A DNA stretch of 61,499 nucleotides, taken from positions 1-61,499 of the forward strand of contig NZ_AOIP01000059.1 in NCBI RefSeq assembly GCF_000337535.1. Direction: 5' to 3'. The stretch's first letter is position 1, and each line of letters begins with the position of its first letter. The DNA is from Natrialba aegyptia DSM 13077. GTDB lineage: Archaea; Halobacteriota; Halobacteria; Halobacteriales; Natrialbaceae. Below the pieces are notes generated by a model. That model ran no database searches, was not told the origin of the DNA, and worked only from the letters and a program-made list of their open reading frames with translations. Positions 9,986 to 35,080 of the stretch are shown in pieces. A program made the position numbers and the translations under genes.

Positions 9986-10387
9986 ATGAGTTTCACACGA
10001 ACGTGGACGGTTCGATTCTCGGACACGGATCCGTTCGGCATCGCACACTACCCGCGGATGATCGACGCGATCCACGAAACCTCGGATATGCTCATGGAAT
10101 CGATCGGCTGGCCCTTCTGGGAACTGACCGACGAACACGGGATCGGGCTCCCGCTCGTCTCGATGGAGTTCGACTTTACGGGCCAGGTAGAAGCCGGCGA
10201 CAACGTCGAGATCGAACTGACTCCCTCGGTCGGCGAATCGAGCGTGCAACTGGAGTACCGAGCCACGCACGACGATACCGTCGTCTTCAGCGGGACGGAA
10301 CACCGCGTCTGCGTTCCCGTCGACGGCGACGGCGGCGTGCCGGTCCCCAACGAACTCAGAACTGCTCTCGACGGCGTTCGCGACTGA
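9986..10387 (+). CDS. Hotdog acyl-CoA thioesterase (4-hydroxybenzoyl-CoA thioesterase type)
   Basis: A 133-residue single hotdog-domain thioesterase. The N-terminus RFSDTDPFGIAHYPRM matches the DPxGI motif of 4-hydroxybenzoyl-CoA thioesterase, whose Asp (here Asp15) is catalytic in the Pseudomonas enzyme. The following helix and strands (MESIGWPFWELT, GLPLVSMEFDFTGQVEAGD) fit the family. In a gentisate cluster with a CoA ligase and a flavin hydroxylase, the attractive substrate is gentisyl-CoA or 4-hydroxybenzoyl-CoA. That is inference; related YbgC-like enzymes act on short acyl-CoAs. It stands between the DUF3237 gene (divergent) and the branched-chain-type ABC ATPase. Confidence 0.88.
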   Translation: MSFTRTWTVRFSDTDPFGIAHYPRMIDAIHETSDMLMESIGWPFWELTDEHGIGLPLVSMEFDFTGQVEAGDNVEIELTPSVGESSVQLEYRATHDDTVVFSGTEHRVCVPVDGDGGVPVPNELRTALDGVRD

Positions 10388-15587: not shown

Positions 15588-15893
15588 GACTCGTGTGGAC
15601 ACGCCGGATTGTGCCACGAGTTCAGACCACACAGGTCGTTCGCTCTCAGGAAACGCATCCCCCATCTCGGATGATCTATAATTTATGATCATCCCCCTCC
15701 GCTGAGAATCCCGTGCAACGAGTTCATATCGGGTTCATGAACTGTTGGCGCGAGTTTCGCAGCGTATTTTACACCAGTACACCTGTAATCGTATTGCGGC
15801 GAAATATTGTTGAGAGGCCAACTACTCCGTTTCGTCACAGCGAACAAGCGAGATTTGTTTCCCGGTCCGATCTACTAGAAGTCTTGAGCATCT
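15588..15893. other. Divergent regulatory spacer, livH-type permease to IclR
   Basis: This is the main part of the roughly 410-base spacer between the two divergent genes. It is more AT-rich than the surroundings and encodes nothing I can support. In-frame ATGs upstream of the IclR gene are excluded by the TATA position at 15894-15902. Confidence 0.5.
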
Positions 15894-15902
15894 CTTATAT
15901 AG
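15894..15902 (+). promoter_or_regulatory. TATA box of the second IclR gene
   Basis: CTTATATAG is centred 25 nt before ATG 15923, fixing a leaderless start and rejecting the 70-codon upstream extension. Confidence 0.65.
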
Positions 15903-15922
15903 ATGCGACAGAAAGAATTCCT

Positions 15923-16690
15923 ATGGAAAATCGTGATATCGGTGGACGATCAATCAAATCGGACGAGACACTGTTCGCCATCATCGAATGCCTGAAGCGA
16001 ACGAACAGCGCAGGCGTCACCGAACTCGCCAATCAGCTCGATCTCGCAAAGAGCACCGTTCACAAACACCTCGTGGCGCTCGAACGCCACCGGTACGTGG
16101 TCAAAGAGGACGGTCAGTATCGTCTCGGACTCCAGTTTTTCACCGCCGGCATCCACGTTCGGAACCAGTACGAGGTCTATCACGCCGCCAAGAATCGAGT
16201 CGACAGGCTCGCAGCCGAGACGAACGAGGCGGCCTGGCTCATCGTTCACGAAAACGGGATGGGGATGTTCATCTACGGCGTTGCCCACAACGAGGCGTTC
16301 ACCTTCGACTCGACGATCGGCACGTGGGTCTACTTACACGCGAACTCGGCCGGCAAGGCGATCCTGGCTCACCTCCCCGACGACGAAGTCTCGGCGATCA
16401 TCGACCGCCACGGACTGCCGGCACAAACCGAGAACACGATCACCGATCGCGAGACCCTGCTCGACGAACTCGCGGATGTTAGAGACCGCGGCTACGCGAT
16501 GAACGCACAGGAGGACCTTCGAGGACTGCACGCGATCGCATCGCCGGTCATCACCGACGGCCGGCCGGTCGCGGCCGTCACCATCGCGGGTGCCGCAAAC
16601 CGGGTTACGGAGGAGCGGATCGAAGACGATCTGTCCGAGCGCCTGCTCGAAGCGGTCGACGACGTCGAACTGCGACTGGTGTACGGGTGA
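15923..16690 (+). CDS. IclR-family transcriptional regulator
   Basis: A 255-residue regulator with an N-terminal winged helix (SDETLFAIIECLKRTNS, LAKSTVHKHLVALERHRYV) and an IclR effector domain (ANSAGKAILAHLPDDEV, GLHAIASPVITDGRPVAAV). It sits between the permease operon and the AMP-forming ligase gene, so it is the best candidate regulator of the aromatic island. It is a distant paralogue of the IclR protein at 2342-3112; both share the order EV.AIIDRHGLPA-like segment and TITDRE..LLDEL motif. Confidence 0.92.
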   Translation: MENRDIGGRSIKSDETLFAIIECLKRTNSAGVTELANQLDLAKSTVHKHLVALERHRYVVKEDGQYRLGLQFFTAGIHVRNQYEVYHAAKNRVDRLAAETNEAAWLIVHENGMGMFIYGVAHNEAFTFDSTIGTWVYLHANSAGKAILAHLPDDEVSAIIDRHGLPAQTENTITDRETLLDELADVRDRGYAMNAQEDLRGLHAIASPVITDGRPVAAVTIAGAANRVTEERIEDDLSERLLEAVDDVELRLVYG

Positions 16691-16870: not shown

Positions 16871-18424
16871 ATGAATCAGAATCTTAGAGACGCGTTCGAG
16901 AGAACGGTCCGGTGTCACTCGTCGAAGACGGCGATTATCACCGAGGGTGGACGGTCGCAGACGTACGGGGAGTTGGACGACCGCACGACGCGGCTGGCGA
17001 ACGCGTTGGCCGAGCGCGCTCCGGGTCGACGGCTCGCGACGCTTGCAGTCAACGGGCCGGCGGCGATCGAAGCGATGCTCGCGAGCCAGAAGCGGGGGGT
17101 CGGAAACGTCCAACTCCCGTTTCGGGAGAGCCCCGGCGCGCTGGCGTCGATGCTCGAGCCGACCGATGCGGGCGTTCTCCTCTTCGACGATGCGAACGCC
17201 GAGACGGCGCTTGCGGTACTCGACCGCGTCCCGTTCGAGCGGGCGATACACGCCGGCGAGAGATCGATCGAGCGCGACGGCGTTATCGACTACGACGTAC
17301 TCCTCTCCGACGCCTCGACCGAGCCGGTCGAACCGCAGCCGGAGGGCGAACACGGCGTCTTCTACACGAGCGGGACGACGAGCACGCCGAAGGCCGTGTT
17401 GTTCGACCAGGAACAGCTGTGGTACGGCAGCACGCAAGTCGTCATGGAGATGGGGATCGAACAGACGGACACGGCGCTGGTGACGACGCCGTGGTATCAT
17501 ATGGTCACCTCCGACGCCTGGATCCTTCCGCACATCCAGGCCGGAGCGACGATGGTCGTCCAGTCCGATTTCGATCCGGACGAGGCGCTGACTCTCATCG
17601 AGGAACACGACGTGACGGGAATGCTCGCGGTTCCGACGCAGTTGCACGCGCTGGCGGACGCGCAGGCGGAGATGGAGTACGACATCGAGACGCTCTCGTA
17701 CATCCGCACCGGCGGCTCGATCGTCACGGACGGGCTCATCGAGAAGGCCGCCGAATACCTGACCGACGGCGTGTACAACACCTACGGACTGACCGAAGGC
17801 GGGCCCAACCTGACGTTCGCACACCCCTCCGCCCAGGAGGACCACCCGGGAACGATCGGCACCGAGTCGTTCACGTGTGAACTCCGGGTCGTGGAAGCCG
17901 CCGAACCCGACGAAGATCCCGATCCGACCGCGACCGTCGACCCGGGCGAGACGGGCGAGATACTCATGCGGAATCCGGGAATGTGCGACGGGTACTTAGA
18001 CCGTCCCGAGGAGACCGACCGCCTGTTGGTCGACGGTTGGCTCCGAACCGGCGACTGCGCGACGGTCGACGAGGACGGCTACCTGTACATCGTCGGCCGC
18101 GTCGATAATATGATCGTCAGCGGCGGCGAGAACGTTTATCCGGAAGACGTTGAAGGTATCGTCGAAACGCACGACTCGATCGACGAAGCCGTCGTCGTCG
18201 GCGTCGAAGACGAACGCTGGGGCCACCGCGTCGGTTGCGTCATCTACACCGAAAGCGCGGATGTCGACGTCGACGACCTCGATCAGTTCTGTAAGGACCA
18301 CGACCAGCTCGCGAACTTCAAGCGCCCGCGCGAGTACGCGGTGGCGACCGAGCCGCTCCCCCGAACCGACACCGGAACCGTCGAACGCGAGACGGTCTCG
18401 ACCGAGTTCTTCGGCGGCGAATGA
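16871..18424 (+). CDS. AMP-forming acyl-CoA ligase-like protein lacking the A10 lysine
   Basis: A 517-residue member of the adenylate-forming superfamily. The P-loop-like A3 motif is YTSGTTSTPKAV, A5 is YNTYGLTEGG, A7/A8 is GWLRTGDCATVDEDGYLYIVGR with a VSGGENVYPEDVE hinge. The C-terminal A10 motif, usually P-x4-G-K-x2-R, reads PRTDTGTVER: the catalytic lysine position is Thr503. In characterised ligases this lysine is needed for adenylation, so activity may be lost, rerouted or specialised. Position in the island suggests an aromatic acid substrate (4-hydroxybenzoate or similar). The gene precedes an ADP-forming CoA synthetase pair that could supply the activation step. Confidence 0.9.
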   Translation: MNQNLRDAFERTVRCHSSKTAIITEGGRSQTYGELDDRTTRLANALAERAPGRRLATLAVNGPAAIEAMLASQKRGVGNVQLPFRESPGALASMLEPTDAGVLLFDDANAETALAVLDRVPFERAIHAGERSIERDGVIDYDVLLSDASTEPVEPQPEGEHGVFYTSGTTSTPKAVLFDQEQLWYGSTQVVMEMGIEQTDTALVTTPWYHMVTSDAWILPHIQAGATMVVQSDFDPDEALTLIEEHDVTGMLAVPTQLHALADAQAEMEYDIETLSYIRTGGSIVTDGLIEKAAEYLTDGVYNTYGLTEGGPNLTFAHPSAQEDHPGTIGTESFTCELRVVEAAEPDEDPDPTATVDPGETGEILMRNPGMCDGYLDRPEETDRLLVDGWLRTGDCATVDEDGYLYIVGRVDNMIVSGGENVYPEDVEGIVETHDSIDEAVVVGVEDERWGHRVGCVIYTESADVDVDDLDQFCKDHDQLANFKRPREYAVATEPLPRTDTGTVERETVSTEFFGGE

Positions 18425-18717
18425 CGACGCCTGCATTCATCCCGACGGGACGGTATTTCCGGGCTCGAAACAGGGCGGAACCGGTGTACACCGAACTGCT
18501 GCCGCACGCGTACGATCTGCCCCCGCAGGACGACGGGGCGGCGCGGTAGCGCGCGTTCCTCTTCGATTCGGAAACGGCGACGCCCGTCGGTACGGGCTAC
18601 CGGGGACGACCGACGCGCCCTTCGAGGCGGTCGATGCGGCGACGAGCGGCGCATCGTCATCATCCGAGACTACACGCGGGGAAAACGTTTTCACGCCGTT
18701 GAAACAACACGGTTGCT
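18425..18717. other. Spacer before the ADP-forming acyl-CoA synthetase operon
   Basis: About 290 bases without a convincing gene. A 12-base perfect palindrome, GAAAACGTTTTC, lies at 18681-18692, 26-37 nt upstream of ATG 18718, where a TATA element or operator would be expected. Confidence 0.4.
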
Positions 18718-20106
18718 ATGGCCGTACAAGACGTATTCGACCCCAGCGGAATTGCCGTCGTCGGGGCGTCCGACACGCCGGGAAAGATGGGGTACGAAGC
18801 CGTACAGAACGCGATCGAATTCGACGGGCCGGTCTACCCGGTCAACCCCTCCGCCTCGGGGTCGGTGTTCGGCCGGGAGTTCGTCGACTCGGTGGGAGCC
18901 ATCGACGGTCCCGTCGATCTCGCGCTCGTCTGCGTTCCGGCACCGGTCGTGCCGAGCGTTATCGCGGAGTGCGGCGAGGCGGGAATCGGCGGGGCGGTCA
19001 TCTTCGCCGGCGGGTTCGCCGAAGCGGGAGCGGACGGCGAGCAGTTGCAGGACGAACTCGTCGCGGCGGCGACCGAGGGCGAGAACGAAGTCGACCTCCT
19101 CGGACCGAACACGAGCGGCTTTCTGGTTCCCGACGAAAGCCTGTACGCGACGTTTGCGACGGGCATCGAGACGGTTCCGGCGGGGAACCTGGCGATCGTC
19201 GCACAGAGCGGCGGGCTGGCCTACTCGCTCGCGTTTCAGGCGGAAAATCGCGGCATCGGCGTCTCCGCGATGGTCGGCCTCGGCAACCGAGCGACCGTCG
19301 GCTTCGACGAGGCGATTGCGTACTTCGACGGCGACGACCGGACCGATGCGATAGTGCTACACGTCGAAGGGACGGACGACGCGCGCAGCCTCCTCGAAAC
19401 CTGCCGGGCCGCGGAGACGCCGATCCTCGCCTACAACGTCGGCGAGCAAGACGTCGGCGACTTCGCCGAATCCCACACGGGAGCGCTGACCGGTCGATAC
19501 GAACTCTACGAAGCCGGATTCGCCCAGTACGGCGTGCCGACCGTCCGGTCGACGGCCGAACTCCTCGACGGTGGACGCGTGCTCGCGACCTGTCCCCGAC
19601 CCGACGGGCCGAACGTCGGCGTCGTGACCGCCCAGGCGGGACCGGGGATCGCCATCGCGGACCGACTGAAGGCCGCCGGTGCGACGCTGCCCTCGCTCGA
19701 CCCGGAGACGCAAGCCGTCATCGAAGACATCCTCCCCGGCATCACCTTCTCCGCGAATCCGGTCGACACCGGGCGGCCGATGCCCGCCTTCGGCGACGTC
19801 GTCGCCGCCGTCGCACGCGACGACACCATCGACATCGTCCTCGTCTACGAACTGTACGAGGACGGCATCGGCTACCCGACCGAAACGCTCGAGGAACTCG
19901 TCAGCGCGGTCGACAAACCGATCGTCTTCGCCACCGGCGGCCCCGACGACACCCTGCGCGAGGAACTCCCCGAACTCGAGGCCCTCGGCGTACCGACCTA
20001 CCGAACGCCGGAGGCCGGCGCGGACGCCGTCGCCGCGCTCGTCCGGGCCGCGAAACGAACCCGGGCCCCTGATGCCGTGAGCCCCGGCGCAGAGGTGAGT
20101 CGATGA
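18718..20106 (+). CDS. Acyl-CoA synthetase (ADP-forming), alpha subunit
   Basis: Alpha subunit of an NDP-forming acyl-CoA synthetase, which converts acyl-CoA, ADP and phosphate to acid, CoA and ATP, or the reverse. An N-terminal CoA-binding Rossmann domain (FDPSGIAVVGASDTPGKMG) is followed by the two ligase-CoA domains. The phosphohistidine loop ESHTGALTG around residue 245 and the LLGPNTSGFLVP and GITFSANPVDTGRP segments are intact. It overlaps the beta gene by 4 nt (ATGA). In archaea the family uses acetate, branched-chain acids, arylacetates and benzoate-like acids, so it may activate the aromatic substrate or make ATP from its products. Confidence 0.92.
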   Translation: MAVQDVFDPSGIAVVGASDTPGKMGYEAVQNAIEFDGPVYPVNPSASGSVFGREFVDSVGAIDGPVDLALVCVPAPVVPSVIAECGEAGIGGAVIFAGGFAEAGADGEQLQDELVAAATEGENEVDLLGPNTSGFLVPDESLYATFATGIETVPAGNLAIVAQSGGLAYSLAFQAENRGIGVSAMVGLGNRATVGFDEAIAYFDGDDRTDAIVLHVEGTDDARSLLETCRAAETPILAYNVGEQDVGDFAESHTGALTGRYELYEAGFAQYGVPTVRSTAELLDGGRVLATCPRPDGPNVGVVTAQAGPGIAIADRLKAAGATLPSLDPETQAVIEDILPGITFSANPVDTGRPMPAFGDVVAAVARDDTIDIVLVYELYEDGIGYPTETLEELVSAVDKPIVFATGGPDDTLREELPELEALGVPTYRTPEAGADAVAALVRAAKRTRAPDAVSPGAEVSR

Positions 20107-20858
20107 CCGACCCTCTCACACCCGTCGACGCGGCGTTGACGGATGGCCGGACCGCGCTGACCGAATCCGAAGCGAAAACAGTAATCGCCGATCGGGGGCT
20201 TGTAACCCCGACGGGTGAACTCGTGCACGCTCCCGATGCGGCCGTCGAAGCGGCCGAGCGACTCGGTTTCCCAGTCGTCGCGAAGGTTGCCGCGCCGTCG
20301 ATCCAGCACAAGAGCGAGTGGGCCGGCGGCGTCGGCGTGAACGTGAACCTCGCCGACGCCGATGCCGTTCGAACGGCCACAACGCGAATCTTCGATGCCG
20401 CGGCCGACCGGAATCTCGACGAAGCAGTCCTCATCGAAGAAGGGATCGACATCGAGGCCGGCCTCGAAGTGATCGTCGGTGCCACGCGAGACCCGTCGTT
20501 CGGCCCGACCGTCCTCGTCGGTCTCGGCGGAATCGCCGTCGAAATCCTTCGGGACACGAGCCACAGAATCGCCCCGGTCTCGACGGCGACGGCACTCGAG
20601 ATGACGCGTGAACTCGAGGCCTCGCCGCTGTTCGACGGCTACCGCGGATCTCCGGCAGTCGACCGGGAAGCGGTCGCCGAGGCGATCGTCGCCGTCGGCG
20701 ATCTGGTGGCCGAACGCGAGGCGGTCCGCGAAGTCGAGATCAATCCGCTGCTCGCGAGACCGGACGGAGCGGTCGCCCTCGACGCGCTCGTCTCGCTCGA
20801 CGGCGAACGCCACGACGACGGAGGCCGTCGCAGTAGGCGGAGACAAAACCGGTCGTGA
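20103..20858 (+). CDS. Acyl-CoA synthetase (ADP-forming), beta subunit
   Basis: ATP-grasp subunit, 251 residues, partner of the alpha subunit encoded just upstream. The ATP-grasp fold is visible as LTESEAKTVIADRGL, GFPVVAKVAAPSIQHKSEWAGGV, VLIEEGIDIEAGLEVIVG, PTVLVGLGGIAVEIL and the metal-binding VREVEINPLLA. It holds the second phosphotransfer site. The last 15 residues are very basic (GGRRSRRRQNRS), unlike the acidic surroundings, and may be a frame extension beyond the conserved fold. Confidence 0.92.
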   Translation: MTDPLTPVDAALTDGRTALTESEAKTVIADRGLVTPTGELVHAPDAAVEAAERLGFPVVAKVAAPSIQHKSEWAGGVGVNVNLADADAVRTATTRIFDAAADRNLDEAVLIEEGIDIEAGLEVIVGATRDPSFGPTVLVGLGGIAVEILRDTSHRIAPVSTATALEMTRELEASPLFDGYRGSPAVDREAVAEAIVAVGDLVAEREAVREVEINPLLARPDGAVALDALVSLDGERHDDGGRRSRRRQNRS

Positions 20859-20931: not shown

Positions 20932-21807
20932 CTACTCGTTTAACTGGCTCTTCTCCACGTCGACGTCCTCGAAGGACAGGTCGCGCTCGGTCACGTCGAC
21001 GACCATCGATCCGACGCTCTCGATTTCGGCGTCGATCGTATCCCCACCGGTAATCGCGCTGACGCCTTCCGGCGTGCCGGTAGTGATGACATCGCCGGCT
21101 TCGATCGTCGCGCCGATCGAGGCGTACTCGACGATGTCAGCACAGCTGTAGATCATCTCGCCCGTGTTCTCCTGCTGGCGGGTCTCGCCGTTGAGCTGCA
21201 GTTCCATCTCGAGGTCGTGCGGATCGTCGATTTCGTCCGGCGTCGCGACGCAGGGGCCGATGATCGTGAAGGTGTCGTAGGACTTTCGGTTCGAGCGGTC
21301 CTGATCGCCCCGAACCGAGACGTCGAGCAGGATCGTGTATCCCAGAATGGCGTCCCAGACATCGTCGCTATCGATATCTTTGACGTCCTCACCCATGACG
21401 AACGCGAGTTCGATCTCGTGGTCGACGCGCCGGTCGCTGAACGGTACTTCGATGCCGTCTTCCGGGCCGGCGACGCTCGAGGGGGCCTTGAGGAAGTAGC
21501 CCTTATCCTCGATGGTGAACCACTCCTGGGTGACGATATCTTTGTCCGCGAGGGCCTCCTCGACGTGGTTCTCGTAGTTCAGCGGCGCGGCGATGACCTT
21601 TCCGGGGCGGCGAACGGGTGATTCGATACGTACCTCGCCGCGGTCGTAGTCCGCATCGGCGTCGCTGAACTCGCTCGCGTCGAGATTGCGGGTCGCGTAC
21701 TCCCGGAGCGGGTCGTTCGTCTCGAGACCGAGGCGGTCGGTAACGTCTACGATGCCGTCGTCGGTCAACAGGCCGAGCCTGTCGTCGTTGAATCGGACAA
21801 GTCGCAT
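20932..21807 (-). CDS. Fumarylacetoacetate hydrolase-family protein (probable fumarylpyruvate hydrolase)
   Basis: A 291-residue FAH-fold hydrolase or isomerase. The sequence GKVIAAPLNYENHVEEA, the metal-binding acid cluster around DHEIELAFVMG, GYTILLDVSVRGDQ and the TTGTPEGVSAI loop are diagnostic. Next to gentisate dioxygenase it most likely cleaves fumarylpyruvate, or maleylpyruvate directly, to pyruvate plus fumarate or malate. The TATA box at 21832-21837 fixes the leaderless start at ATG 21807, not the longer frame. It is divergent from the gentisate dioxygenase gene with only about 170 bases between. Confidence 0.92.
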   Translation of the reverse strand: MRLVRFNDDRLGLLTDDGIVDVTDRLGLETNDPLREYATRNLDASEFSDADADYDRGEVRIESPVRRPGKVIAAPLNYENHVEEALADKDIVTQEWFTIEDKGYFLKAPSSVAGPEDGIEVPFSDRRVDHEIELAFVMGEDVKDIDSDDVWDAILGYTILLDVSVRGDQDRSNRKSYDTFTIIGPCVATPDEIDDPHDLEMELQLNGETRQQENTGEMIYSCADIVEYASIGATIEAGDVITTGTPEGVSAITGGDTIDAEIESVGSMVVDVTERDLSFEDVDVEKSQLNE

Positions 21808-21831
21808 AGTACATGCACTGCGATACGCCCA

Positions 21832-21837
21832 CATAAA
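21832..21837 (-). promoter_or_regulatory. TATA box of the FAH-family gene
   Basis: TTTATG on the minus strand, centred 27 nt before ATG 21807. Confidence 0.65.
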
Positions 21838-21944: not shown

Positions 21945-21951
21945 CTTATGG
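21945..21951 (+). promoter_or_regulatory. TATA box of gentisate 1,2-dioxygenase
   Basis: CTTATGG is centred 27 nt before ATG 21975. The ATG inside this box (21948) is therefore not a start. The two divergent TATA boxes are about 110 bases apart, room for one shared operator. Confidence 0.6.
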
Positions 21952-21974
21952 TATCGTTCATCAAACATGCGACT

Positions 21975-23054
21975 ATGGCAGAACAAGAGCCAGAGGAACT
22001 CCTCGAGTTGAGTTCCGACACGCGGAGCACCCTCGAGCAACACAACCTCCGCCCGCTCTGGGAAGTAGAAGACGACATGGGGCATCTCCTCGACGACCTC
22101 GAAGCGGACATCTGGAAGTGGGAGGACATCGAGGCCGCTATCGACGGCATCGAGGCGGACGTGCCGATCGCCGACCTCCCGCCGGGCTTCCAGCGACGGG
22201 TTGCGGTGCCGATCAACGCCGAACACGCGATTTCGAACACGATCTACGTCGGCGTGCAGACGGTCTCGCCCGGCGAAACCGCACCCTCCCACCGCCACGC
22301 AGCAAGCGCCCTTCGGTTCACCATCGACGGCCACGAAGACATGAAGACGGTCGTCGCCGGCGAGGAGTTCCCCATGAAGGACAATGACCTCGTCACCACG
22401 CCACAGTGGGAGTGGCACGACCACATCAACGACTCCGACGAAACGGCCGCCTGGCTCGACGTGCTCGACCTGCCGCTGTTCCTGGATACGCTGAACAACA
22501 CGCACGTCTTCGAGAATCACGAACTCGAACGACAGCCGGTGACGAAGTCGCAGGGATACTGGGCCTCCCAGTACGGGCGCGGCCGCCCCGCCGGCGAGCG
22601 AAAAGACGGCTCCATTCCCGGACCGTTCGAGGGTAATCAGGAGCCGACGCCGCCGTATCGCTTCGGGTGGGACGAGATGGAGGAGTCGCTCCGTCAACGC
22701 GCGGACAATGACGAACCGGACCCCTACGACGGCTACAGCCTCGCGTACGTCAATCCGGCCACGGGGGAGGAGCCGCTGTTCCCGACCATGTCCTTCCGGG
22801 CGCAGCTGCTAAACGACGGGCCGACGGACGCACACTTCCACAACGCGACGGAAGTCTACTTCGTCATAGAAGGTGAGGGCGCGACCCACGTCGACGGCGA
22901 GGCCCTCGAATGGGGACAGTGGGACATCTTTGTCGTGCCGCCGGACGCACCCCATCACCACGAACCGGACGACGAAGCGATCCTCCTCGGTATGACCGAC
23001 CGACCGATTCTGGAGGCGATGAACTTCTACGCCGAAGCCGGTATCGATGGCTAA
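21975..23054 (+). CDS. Gentisate 1,2-dioxygenase
   Basis: Ring-cleaving Fe(II) bicupin dioxygenase that opens gentisate to maleylpyruvate. The 359-residue protein starts MAEQEPEELLELS. The first cupin carries the metal motif PSHRHAASALRFTIDG near residue 100 and the second the related DAHFHNATEVYFVIEGEG near 285. The conserved middle segment (LDLPLFLDTLNN, then an arginine-rich linker) is typical of the gentisate/1-hydroxy-2-naphthoate family. Haloarchaeal gentisate dioxygenases are known biochemically from Haloferax and Haloarcula growing on aromatic acids. It is divergent from the FAH hydrolase gene. Confidence 0.95.
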   Translation: MAEQEPEELLELSSDTRSTLEQHNLRPLWEVEDDMGHLLDDLEADIWKWEDIEAAIDGIEADVPIADLPPGFQRRVAVPINAEHAISNTIYVGVQTVSPGETAPSHRHAASALRFTIDGHEDMKTVVAGEEFPMKDNDLVTTPQWEWHDHINDSDETAAWLDVLDLPLFLDTLNNTHVFENHELERQPVTKSQGYWASQYGRGRPAGERKDGSIPGPFEGNQEPTPPYRFGWDEMEESLRQRADNDEPDPYDGYSLAYVNPATGEEPLFPTMSFRAQLLNDGPTDAHFHNATEVYFVIEGEGATHVDGEALEWGQWDIFVVPPDAPHHHEPDDEAILLGMTDRPILEAMNFYAEAGIDG

Positions 23055-25087: not shown

Positions 25088-25214
25088 TCGGCGAGCACAA
25101 GACAGAGCGGACGACGAAAAACGGGCGGTCGGCGAGCCCGCTTTCTCACGGGGCAGCGGACCGGCACACGAGGCGGTACCCGAACCGGACCGACGCGGAC
25201 GACAATGGAATGGA

Positions 25215-25220
25215 TTTACA
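25215..25220 (+). promoter_or_regulatory. TATA box of the small unknown gene
   Basis: TTTACA is centred about 27 nt before ATG 25244 and argues against the longer in-frame start at 25205, which lies upstream of the box. Confidence 0.55.
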
Positions 25221-25243
25221 ATACCCGACCGCCAAGTGAGCCC

Positions 25244-25567
25244 ATGGCACTCGAAAGCGACGTGAGAGCAGCCGCCGAACAACGTGACGACCTTCCGACC
25301 GCCGCAGACGTACACGACCCCGATACCGAGATTCCACTCACCGACCTGTTCGATGCAGAGTTCGTCCAGGCCCACACCGAGTTCAGTTCGTTCGACGACC
25401 TGGTTGCGGCGAGTCCCAGTCCCGCCGACGCCGCGGCTGAACTCGAGACCGTTCCGGAGGGCGAGTGGGACGAGTTCGTCGCGGAGACGACCGACTTCGC
25501 AGACGAGAAGGCGTTGGTGCTGGCTGCGCGCGATCACTGGGTCGGCAAGCAACTCGAACTCGTCTGA
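25244..25567 (+). CDS. Small acidic protein of unknown function
   Basis: A 107-residue, strongly acidic soluble protein (MALESDVRAAAEQRDDLP start, DHWVGKQLELV end). I do not recognise a family. It has no membrane segment, cysteine or obvious catalytic motif. A correctly spaced TATA box and haloarchaeal codon use support it. It lies between the aldehyde dehydrogenase and the flavin hydroxylase, on the strand opposite to the latter, so it is one of two candidates in the island for a missing small component such as an isomerase or accessory protein. Confidence 0.7.
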   Translation: MALESDVRAAAEQRDDLPTAADVHDPDTEIPLTDLFDAEFVQAHTEFSSFDDLVAASPSPADAAAELETVPEGEWDEFVAETTDFADEKALVLAARDHWVGKQLELV

Positions 25568-25663: not shown

Positions 25664-26893
25664 TCAGTAGTTCCCGGTCGACACGATCGGCGGCGTTCCG
25701 TGCGGACCGTAGGGAGCGTCGTCGAGCCACTCGCCCGCAGTCTCGAACTGATCCGCAAGCGAGGCCGCTGCCTCCTTCTGTAACACCGTCACCGGATCCT
25801 CGCCCTGGAGGTATTCGAGCGCCTGTCCCGCCGCGTCGAGATTGAACTCGGCGGCTTTCTCGCGCCGGGCCGCGTACAGTTCGACCTCGTCGCGGACGAC
25901 CGCGTCGGTCTTCGCATCGATAGCGGCCGCAATCGCCGAAGCTGCCTCGTCCGCGTCGGCGATGCCCGAGTTCATCCCGCGAGCGCCGAAGGGCGCGAGC
26001 AGGTGCGCCGCTTCACCGGCGAGCAGCACCCGGCGGTCGTCGTCGATGAAGGTGTCCGCCATCACCTGGAGGAAGTAGTAACTCGAGACCCACTGCAGGT
26101 TGTCCTCGTAGCGCTCGCCCATGATGTCGCGGATGAACTCGCGCATCCGCTCTTCGCTGCTGAGTTCCTCGGGGTCGTCGCCCTCGATGCACTGAATGTC
26201 GAGTCGCCAGCCGCCGGTGAAGGGGACGAGCAACACGTTGCGGCCGTCGGCCGCGGGCGCGTCGTAGTGGAATACCCGCTCGAGTTCGCGCTGTTCGTCT
26301 TCGATCTCCTCGATGTCGGCGATGAGGAAGGCGTTCTCGGACTGGTCGCCCTCGAAGTTCGCGCCGATCTCCTTGCGAACGGTCGAGCCGCCGCCGTCCG
26401 CGCCGATCAGGAACTCGCCGCGCCATTCGCGGCCGTCGGCCGTCTCGACGCGGACGCCGTCGGGTGAGGACTCGACGATATCGACCTCGGCATCCCAGTG
26501 GATGTCGATGCCGGCCTCGGCAAGCGCGTCGTGCATGTAGTCCTCGGTGACGACCTGCGGGACGCTGGTAAAGTGTGGAATGTCACCCGAGCCGCCGGGG
26601 GAGTCGTACGTTCGGCTGAACACTTCCGCGCCCCGGAAGAGCGTGCGTCGCGTCGGCCAGACGAGGCCCTCGTCGACGAGGTCGGTGCCGAGTCCCGGAT
26701 GAACTCGTTCGAGCGTCCGGAGCGTGGATCCGTGGACGTAGATGGCGCGACTGCCGGAACGATCCCGGTCTGCAGATTCGGCTTCGAGAATCGTTGCGTC
26801 GATTCCTCGCGCGTGTAAGGCGAGTGCTGCGCTCATTCCGACCGGTCCAGCGCCGGCTATCAGTACGGGAGATGCCGTCGTATCACCGCTCAT
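25664..26893 (-). CDS. FAD-dependent aromatic hydroxylase
   Basis: A 409-residue flavoprotein monooxygenase of the p-hydroxybenzoate hydroxylase/MhpA class. The Rossmann motif is GAGPVGMSAALALHARG, the DG motif LIGADGGGSTVRKEIG, and the third flavin motif reads LLAGEAAHLLAPFGARGMNSG, where the usual GD of GDAAH is GE. Next to gentisate dioxygenase it should make gentisate or gentisyl-CoA: options are 3-hydroxybenzoate 6-hydroxylase, salicylate 5-hydroxylase-like, or 4-hydroxybenzoyl-CoA 1-hydroxylase with NIH shift. The CoA ligase and thioesterase in the island favour the CoA route. A TATA box at 26919-26925 supports the ATG start. Confidence 0.9.
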   Translation of the reverse strand: MSGDTTASPVLIAGAGPVGMSAALALHARGIDATILEAESADRDRSGSRAIYVHGSTLRTLERVHPGLGTDLVDEGLVWPTRRTLFRGAEVFSRTYDSPGGSGDIPHFTSVPQVVTEDYMHDALAEAGIDIHWDAEVDIVESSPDGVRVETADGREWRGEFLIGADGGGSTVRKEIGANFEGDQSENAFLIADIEEIEDEQRELERVFHYDAPAADGRNVLLVPFTGGWRLDIQCIEGDDPEELSSEERMREFIRDIMGERYEDNLQWVSSYYFLQVMADTFIDDDRRVLLAGEAAHLLAPFGARGMNSGIADADEAASAIAAAIDAKTDAVVRDEVELYAARREKAAEFNLDAAGQALEYLQGEDPVTVLQKEAAASLADQFETAGEWLDDAPYGPHGTPPIVSTGNY

Positions 26894-33624: not shown

Positions 33625-33663
33625 GAGTGAGAGAGGAGAGTGAGAGAGGAGAGTGAGAAGAGG
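33625..33663. repeat. 13-bp tandem repeat, three units
   Basis: The unit GAGTGAGAGAGGA occurs twice exactly (33625-33637, 33638-33650) and a third time imperfectly (33651-33663). It is a purine-only run just after the stop of the regulator gene and 50 bases before the next promoter. Confidence 0.8.
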
Positions 33664-33712
33664 GGGTTGTATCGGGCGAACCGCGTTAGATGGTACCACA
33701 AAATCCCCGCCA

Positions 33713-33718
33713 TTTATG
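33713..33718 (+). promoter_or_regulatory. TATA box of the orphan acyl-CoA synthetase alpha gene
   Basis: TTTATG is centred 27 nt before ATG 33743, so the 30-codon upstream extension is not translated. Confidence 0.65.
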
Positions 33719-33742
33719 GTCCAATACTCGCTGCAGTTCAGT

Positions 33743-35080
33743 ATGAGCCTACCCGCTCTCTTCGATCCGGATGGCGTCGCCGTTATCGGTGCGTCGGCGA
33801 CGCCGGGAAAGCTCGGGAACGATGCGATGTCTAACGTCGAAGCCTCCGACACCGAGATCTATCCCGTAAATCCCTCGAGTTCGGGGACCGTCTTCGGCTA
33901 CGAGTTCGTCGACTCGGTGCGGGAGACCGACGCGGAACTGGCGTTGTGTTGTGTCCCTCGGCACCTGCAACCGGACGTGATCGAGGAGTGCGGTGAGGCG
34001 GGCGTCGAGGCGGCCGTGATCTTCGCCGGCGGATTCGCCGAGATGGGTGGCGACGGTGCGGAGCTGCAAAACACGATTGCGGAGACCGCGGCGGCGTACG
34101 ACATGACAGTTCTCGGGCCGAACACGGCCGGATACGCGATCCCCCACAAGGATCTGTACGGGTCGTTCGTTCCTCGAATCCGCGACGTGGAGACCGGAAA
34201 CATCGGACTCGTTACCCAGAGTGCCGGCGTCGGGATCACCATGTCGTTTCAACTGACTCGTGAGGGATACGGTATCTCGGCGATGTTCGGCCTCGGAAAC
34301 CGGATGAACACGGGCTTTGCCGACGTGATTCCGGCGCTCGACGACGATCCGCGGACCGACGCAATCGTCATGCACGTCGAGGGGACAGAGGACGTCGACG
34401 CACTCCTGCAGGCCTGCCAAACCGCCGAGACGCCGATCGCCGCGTTCAAAGTCGGCGAACACGACATCGCCGATCTCGCGCGAGCGCACACCGCCGCGCC
34501 GGCGCAGGACAATGCCATCTACGAGGCCGGCTTCGACCAGCCCGGATTGGTGACCGTTTCGTCGACGACCGAACTGCTCGATGCCGGCAGAGCCCTGGCC
34601 GACTCGCCGACGCCCGACGGCCCGAACGTCGGTCTCGTCACGGCCCAGGCCGGACCAGGAATCATCATGACTGACTACCTCAAAGGCACCGCGGCGACGT
34701 TTCCGGACCTGACCGACGAGACCCGCGAGCGACTCGACGACATCCTTCCGGGCATCACGTACACGGAAAACCCGGTCGACACGGGCCGACCGATGCCCGA
34801 GTTCGGTGCCGTCATCGACGCCGTTGCACGCGACGACAACGTCGACATCGTGCTGGTCTATGAAATCTACGAGGACTCGCTCGGCTATCCCGTCGCTGAA
34901 CTCGAGACGCTCTCCGCCGAGGTCGACAAACCGATCTGCTTTACGGTCGCCGGCCCCGACCACGCACTCGACGACGAGCGCCGACAGATGGAGGCAGCCG
35001 GAATTCCGACGTTCGACACGCCTGAGCGCGGGGCACAAGCCGTCGGCGCACTGCTCAACTCGATTTCGGAGGCCGAATGA
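33743..35080 (+). CDS. Acyl-CoA synthetase (ADP-forming) alpha-like subunit without beta partner
   Basis: A 445-residue paralogue of the alpha subunit at 18718-20106. The CoA-binding start FDPDGVAVIGASATPGKLGN, VLGPNTAGYAIP and GITYTENPVDTGRP are conserved. The phosphohistidine loop reads RAHTAAPAQDNAIYE where the paralogue has ESHTGALTGRYELYE: the His is kept, but the glycines around it are lost. No beta (ATP-grasp) gene is adjacent; the next gene is a DASS transporter. It may use a beta subunit encoded elsewhere or have a different role. Confidence 0.88.
   Translation: MSLPALFDPDGVAVIGASATPGKLGNDAMSNVEASDTEIYPVNPSSSGTVFGYEFVDSVRETDAELALCCVPRHLQPDVIEECGEAGVEAAVIFAGGFAEMGGDGAELQNTIAETAAAYDMTVLGPNTAGYAIPHKDLYGSFVPRIRDVETGNIGLVTQSAGVGITMSFQLTREGYGISAMFGLGNRMNTGFADVIPALDDDPRTDAIVMHVEGTEDVDALLQACQTAETPIAAFKVGEHDIADLARAHTAAPAQDNAIYEAGFDQPGLVTVSSTTELLDAGRALADSPTPDGPNVGLVTAQAGPGIIMTDYLKGTAATFPDLTDETRERLDDILPGITYTENPVDTGRPMPEFGAVIDAVARDDNVDIVLVYEIYEDSLGYPVAELETLSAEVDKPICFTVAGPDHALDDERRQMEAAGIPTFDTPERGAQAVGALLNSISEAE

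Follow-up and report, generated by a model that had tools for sequence, protein, structure and literature searches.

The gene that we call LIG, coding for an AMP-forming acyl/aryl-CoA ligase, lies in a 61,499-nucleotide stretch of Natrialba aegyptia DSM 13077 DNA (contig NZ_AOIP01000059.1), which was analysed as a whole and is referred to below as the window. The following genes and motifs were located in the window.

9986..10387, + strand: hotdog thioesterase (4HBT_2), candidate gentisyl-CoA thioesterase; start codon approximate
15713..16690, + strand: IclR-family regulator directly upstream of LIG; true start probably near 15920
16871..18424, + strand: LIG, AMP-forming acyl/aryl-CoA ligase, 517 amino acids plus stop, open frame; Pfam PF00501 and PF13193
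17363..17395, + strand: LIG A3/P-loop motif YTSGTTSTPKA, intact; T166, S167, G168, T170 and K174 invariant in 63/63 orthologues
17774..17797, + strand: LIG A5 motif YNTYGLTE; E309 invariant
18038..18055, + strand: LIG A7 motif WLRTGD; D395 invariant
18095..18142, + strand: LIG A8 motif GRVDNMIVSGGENVYP; R410, D412 and N413 invariant
18356..18391, + strand: LIG A10 motif LPRTDTGTVERE, read from the translation
18377..18379, + strand: codon ACC for Thr503, which occupies the adenylating-lysine position, by translation and alignment
18718..20106, + strand: ADP-forming acyl-CoA synthetase alpha subunit (acdA-like); phosphohistidine motif SHTGA intact
20103..20858, + strand: ADP-forming acyl-CoA synthetase beta (ATP-grasp) subunit (acdB-like)
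20932..21834, - strand: fumarylacetoacetate-hydrolase family protein, candidate fumarylpyruvate hydrolase
21948..23054, + strand: gentisate 1,2-dioxygenase-like cupin
25664..26890, - strand: FAD-dependent aromatic hydroxylase-like protein (FAD_binding_3)

The LIG product matches PF00501 with 189.3 bits (curated cut-off 29.9) and PF13193 with 40.4 bits (cut-off 24.5). Five residues were invariant in a published survey of 374 ANL enzymes: a Glu, a Gly, an Asp, an Arg and the A10 Lys (PMC6122825). The first four correspond to E309, G362, D395 and R410 in LIG and are invariant in all 63 orthologues that we collected, and the sequence-only reading of this locus was right in describing the motifs ahead of A10 as intact. 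The fifth is replaced. The A10 segment of LIG reads LPRTDTGTVER, with TGT starting at residue 501, which places Thr503 in the lysine slot at the position given by that earlier reading. The lysine of haloarchaeal paralogues (LPKNPSGK[IV]QK, LPRTTTGKVQK) aligns to exactly this column, and 17/17 of the paralogues compared carry Lys there. Among the AMP-binding proteins of the Natrialba genome with a readable A10 motif, Thr occurs at this position only in LIG and in MenE. By homology and fold LIG belongs to the ANL superfamily; what fails is the assumption that it uses the canonical A10-lysine chemistry. A separate peculiarity lies in A8, where an Asp-to-Asn change (N413) is invariant across the LIG family.

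Alignment with homologues, which had been proposed as a check, showed that the threonine is conserved in a subfamily. The orthologue set comprises 63 distinct haloarchaeal sequences of 52-97% identity, with orthologues present in 55 of 391 Halobacteria genomes. The A10 residue in this set is Thr in 52/63, Lys in 10/63 and Asn in 1/63. The Thr codons are ACG (26), ACC (23) and ACA (3), and dN/dS between pairs of Thr-type members is 0.10-0.32. Threonine in LIG is therefore ancient and maintained. The single Asn member reads LPRSDTGNLLR (locus L117, 9315-10844, - strand). In one genome (G410, locus L091) LIG occurs as a pair of paralogues some 6 kb from each other, and each of them carries Thr (TGTIKR and TGTLKR).

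The distribution of the two residues was traced on a LIG family tree made from an alignment lacking the A10 region. On this tree the Lys members fall into three distinct groups, each a nested minority, and a single clade of Lys members is rejected (AU test, p=3.5e-6). Three Lys/Thr changes are needed without an outgroup and four with a Lys-type outgroup. Read for the fewest changes, the tree suggests an early Thr and two or three later returns to Lys; without a fixed root, such returns are not fully separable from repeated loss of Lys. The neighbouring residue D500 follows the exchange, being present in 51/53 members with Thr and 0/10 with Lys. The independent contrasts between D500 and Thr agree, but there are only three of them, a number at which significance is unreachable (sign test, p=0.25). 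A D500-T503 cation site was considered as a requirement and rejected since Thr-type MenE mostly has Ala or Val at the D500 position.

We also searched LIG for a residue that could stand in for the missing lysine. Just two lysines are invariant in the 63-orthologue alignment, K174 in the P-loop and K484 (FKRPR), the latter also found in most Lys-type paralogues. No compensating lysine separates Thr from Lys members in this alignment together with the paralogues, and no residue replacing the A10 lysine was found in LIG. The suggestion that LIG uses another lysine thus found no support. An AlphaFold2 model made from the family alignment (pLDDT 89.7) lies about 3.4 A from adenylation-state structures (feruloyl-CoA synthetase and 4-chlorobenzoate:CoA ligase, CBL) and about 11 A from thioester-state ones. 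The modelled fold can accordingly be said to adopt the adenylation state, a statement about fold and not about activity.

The gene neighbourhood is shared by both forms of the enzyme. Within about 9 kb of LIG, a gentisate dioxygenase is found in 50/62 loci, an FAD hydroxylase in 32/62 and a thioesterase in 27/62, and an IclR gene is located upstream in most loci. LIG is thus linked to a ring hydroxylase, a thioesterase and a gentisate dioxygenase, the linkage looked for in a ligase of a CoA-dependent gentisate pathway. The dioxygenase is linked to LIG in 40/51 Thr loci and 10/10 Lys loci, and the synthetase alpha gene in 36/51 and 8/10, respectively. As these linkages are alike, the Thr and Lys forms share one setting. 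Beside the FAD hydroxylase, 28/62 LIG loci conserve a 120-residue acidic protein (window 25205-25567, + strand, without a Pfam or NCBIfam match) that may belong to the gentisate pathway. The window also contains a second ADP-forming synthetase alpha-type protein (33653-35080, + strand), in which the phosphohistidine motif is changed from HTGA to HTAA, and a fragment of an AMP-binding protein (51-233, - strand) that is cut by the left end of the contig.

The ADP-forming synthetase had been described as directly downstream of LIG and as a possible source of the activation step. It is indeed the next gene downstream, but a 293 bp gap (18424 to 18718) lies in between, and the synthetase is encoded as separate alpha and beta subunits. 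ADP-forming synthetases generate acyl-CoA via an acyl-phosphate and a phosphohistidine, not via acyl-AMP. Thus, this enzyme could not feed a partner that performs only thioesterification. The phosphohistidine motif of the alpha subunit is intact in its orthologues, so the synthetase can be expected to make acyl-CoA alone. Judged by its linkage frequencies it does not favour Thr over Lys forms, and a close alpha orthologue is missing from three genomes with Thr-type LIG (G290, G407 and G311). As a partner of LIG the synthetase is therefore common, not obligatory, and the proposal that it does the activating for LIG is not borne out.

A scan of AMP-binding proteins in the Natrialba genome identified the second Lys-to-Thr enzyme as MenE, located directly behind menC (G000:C6:89966-91390, locus L167/L133) and scoring above the TIGR01923 cut-off. 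The A10 residue of MenE is Thr in 50/50 Halobacteria genomes examined (three sets of 29, 17 and 4), with the motif LPRTxSGT[VI]DR in nearly all 50 (including L146-L195) and an intact P-loop in most of the sequences read. The MenE proteins of one genus (code g33; L181, L186, L194 and L195) have C-terminal domains with long, highly acidic insertions of low complexity, as well as long tails, and keep the A10 Thr motif despite these insertions. In Bacillus subtilis MenE, Lys471 contacts the ATP alpha-phosphate, and growth is impaired when this lysine is acetylated (PMC11619455). Menaquinone is used by haloarchaea, and a published reconstruction of their pathway includes menE, for which HVO_1375 is curated (PMC8305020). 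Judged from this physiology, Thr-type MenE seems to perform both steps of the reaction in vivo. Given this reliance on menaquinone and the presence of Thr in every MenE examined, a Lys-to-Thr change seems compatible with a complete two-step reaction. Note that MenE is only a partial analogy for LIG because cofactor synthesis can perhaps be served by a slow enzyme, whereas catabolism demands a higher flux. A quick tree joined LIG and haloarchaeal MenE with 85% support, whereas a careful tree groups LIG with Lys paralogues and not with MenE (AU test on LIG-MenE sisterhood, p=0.24).

Taken together, we consider it probable, though far from certain, that LIG catalyses both steps of an AMP-forming CoA ligase, most likely on an aromatic acid destined for gentisate, and forms the adenylate with no A10 lysine. 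The substrate and pathway in this proposal are suggested by the neighbouring genes. Evidence for the proposal comes from the maintenance of Thr under dN/dS values of 0.10-0.32, from the other ATP-handling residues, which are intact, from the exchange of Thr and Lys forms within one gene neighbourhood, from Thr-type MenE and from the match of the model to adenylation-state structures. In such a mechanism the enzyme would take up ATP and the acid while in its adenylation conformation, as CBL does. The charge on the alpha-phosphate and carboxylate would then be held, less strongly than by lysine, by Mg2+, the P-loop hydroxyls and the Thr503 hydroxyl, perhaps helped by K+ of the multimolar-KCl cytoplasm. 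The C-terminal domain would rotate and CoA would displace AMP normally because published work ties the A10 lysine to the first half-reaction. The resulting aroyl-CoA would be hydroxylated, a thioesterase would free gentisate and gentisate dioxygenase would open the ring. The chief caution against this proposal is one of quantity: the K492A mutation lowers kcat/Km of CBL 500-fold and the K487A mutation lowers FadD13 activity by 96% (PMC6122825). The adjacent ADP-forming synthetase, a second CoA-forming system, could also cover the need for acyl-CoA. As a broader and more tentative possibility, Halobacteria may have dispensed with the A10 lysine in two families (all MenE examined and most LIG), with adenylate formation stabilised otherwise, for example by a hydroxyl together with K+ or Mg2+.

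The sequence-only reading had also raised thioester formation alone as a function. In this form LIG would be a naturally non-adenylating ligase similar to PtmA2, attaching CoA to an acyl-adenylate that is made by another enzyme, which we regard as unlikely while still a reading to be weighed. Loss of the lysine needed for the first step fits this idea, the PDB matches of LIG include PtmA2 structures, and there is a precedent in PtmA1 and PtmA2, two ANL enzymes that appear to split the half-reactions between them (PMC6594144). However, the P-loop, which has a role in adenylation, is invariant in the LIG family, and Lys and Thr members interchange repeatedly in the same neighbourhood, with Thr-type MenE pointing in the same direction. 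There is also no consistently linked gene to provide the adenylate. Specifically, a second AMP-binding gene similar to PtmA1 is present near LIG in some loci only and not consistently within 20-kb neighbourhoods, and the established chemistry of the ADP-forming synthetase yields no acyl-AMP.

Less likely again is loss of efficient CoA-ligase function in favor of another role, such as binding or sensing of acyl-adenylate or acyl-CoA, or formation of an amide or ester, with the synthetase responsible for catabolic activation. The synthetase alpha gene with its intact phosphohistidine motif near most Thr loci, and the amide-bond synthetases among the structural neighbours of LIG, are consistent with such a role. 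Against it stand the invariance of the thioesterification motif A8 and of all ATP-site residues, the three Thr genomes without a close synthetase-alpha orthologue and the Lys members in the same setting that resemble normal ligases.

A further idea, to which we give little weight, concerns the reason for the change and not an alternative activity. Threonine could have been selected as an escape from reversible lysine acetylation, giving a slower and constitutively active ligase. The A10 lysine is a known acetylation target in CoA ligases, including K471 of B. subtilis MenE (PMC11619455; PMC8388817), but other ligases of the Natrialba genome have kept the lysine.

Finally, a sequencing error or a single decaying copy, for which the expectation of Lys at A10 is the sole argument, can be dismissed given Thr in 52/63 members from dozens of independently sequenced genomes, three Thr codons, intact frames and dN/dS values well below 1; Lys homologues in identical context, which were to have signalled such an error or decay, do exist, but as nested minorities in three places.

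If LIG and MenE function as proposed, then a residue held to be both invariant and catalytic would be exchangeable repeatedly in evolution while the full two-step reaction is kept. What began as one odd residue has grown into an exception, extending across the class, to a position described as invariant. The lysine missing from MenE across the class, and the repeated swapping of Lys and Thr in LIG, amount to a natural experiment on the contribution of this lysine, and haloarchaeal Thr enzymes make the textbook reliance of adenylation on it directly testable. The same lysine is also the site where cells switch these enzymes off by acetylation. The observations bear on adenylation that does without this lysine and on automatic annotation where it depends on complete motifs.

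Comparison with known systems places these features in context. The genes around LIG form a set similar to the haloarchaeal gdoA/acdB/tieA group, with gentisate dioxygenase, ADP-forming CoA-synthetase subunit and thioesterase genes. This group was reportedly described by Fairley et al. in 2006, in work that is not known to include this AMP-forming ligase. PtmA2 of platensimycin biosynthesis (PDB 5UPQ) is a natural ANL enzyme that is reported to carry out the nucleophilic half-reaction only (PMC6594144); LIG differs from it in having no consistently linked adenylating partner of the PtmA1 type. The o-succinylbenzoate:CoA ligase MenE (TIGR01923; B. subtilis PDB 5BUR) shares the A10 Thr with LIG in its haloarchaeal form, while the B. 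subtilis enzyme uses Lys471 where LIG has Thr503 (PMC11619455). LIG is distinguished from MenE by its score of 233.7 bits against the TIGR01923 cut-off of 330.15 and by its linkage to gentisate genes, outside any men locus. The best PDB match of LIG in both sequence and structure is the Amycolatopsis thermoflava feruloyl-CoA synthetase (PDB 8WEU/8WEV), whose A10 Lys (lp.t.sGki) faces the LIG Thr in the alignment. CBL (PDB 1T5D/3CW8) is likewise among the nearest solved sequences and structures, at about 27-28% identity in the structural alignment. It has in common with LIG the fold, the order of motifs, the GRVD[DN]MI.SGGEN region of A8 and the LD.FC...LA.FKRP region, and differs in having the catalytic Lys492 where LIG has Thr503.
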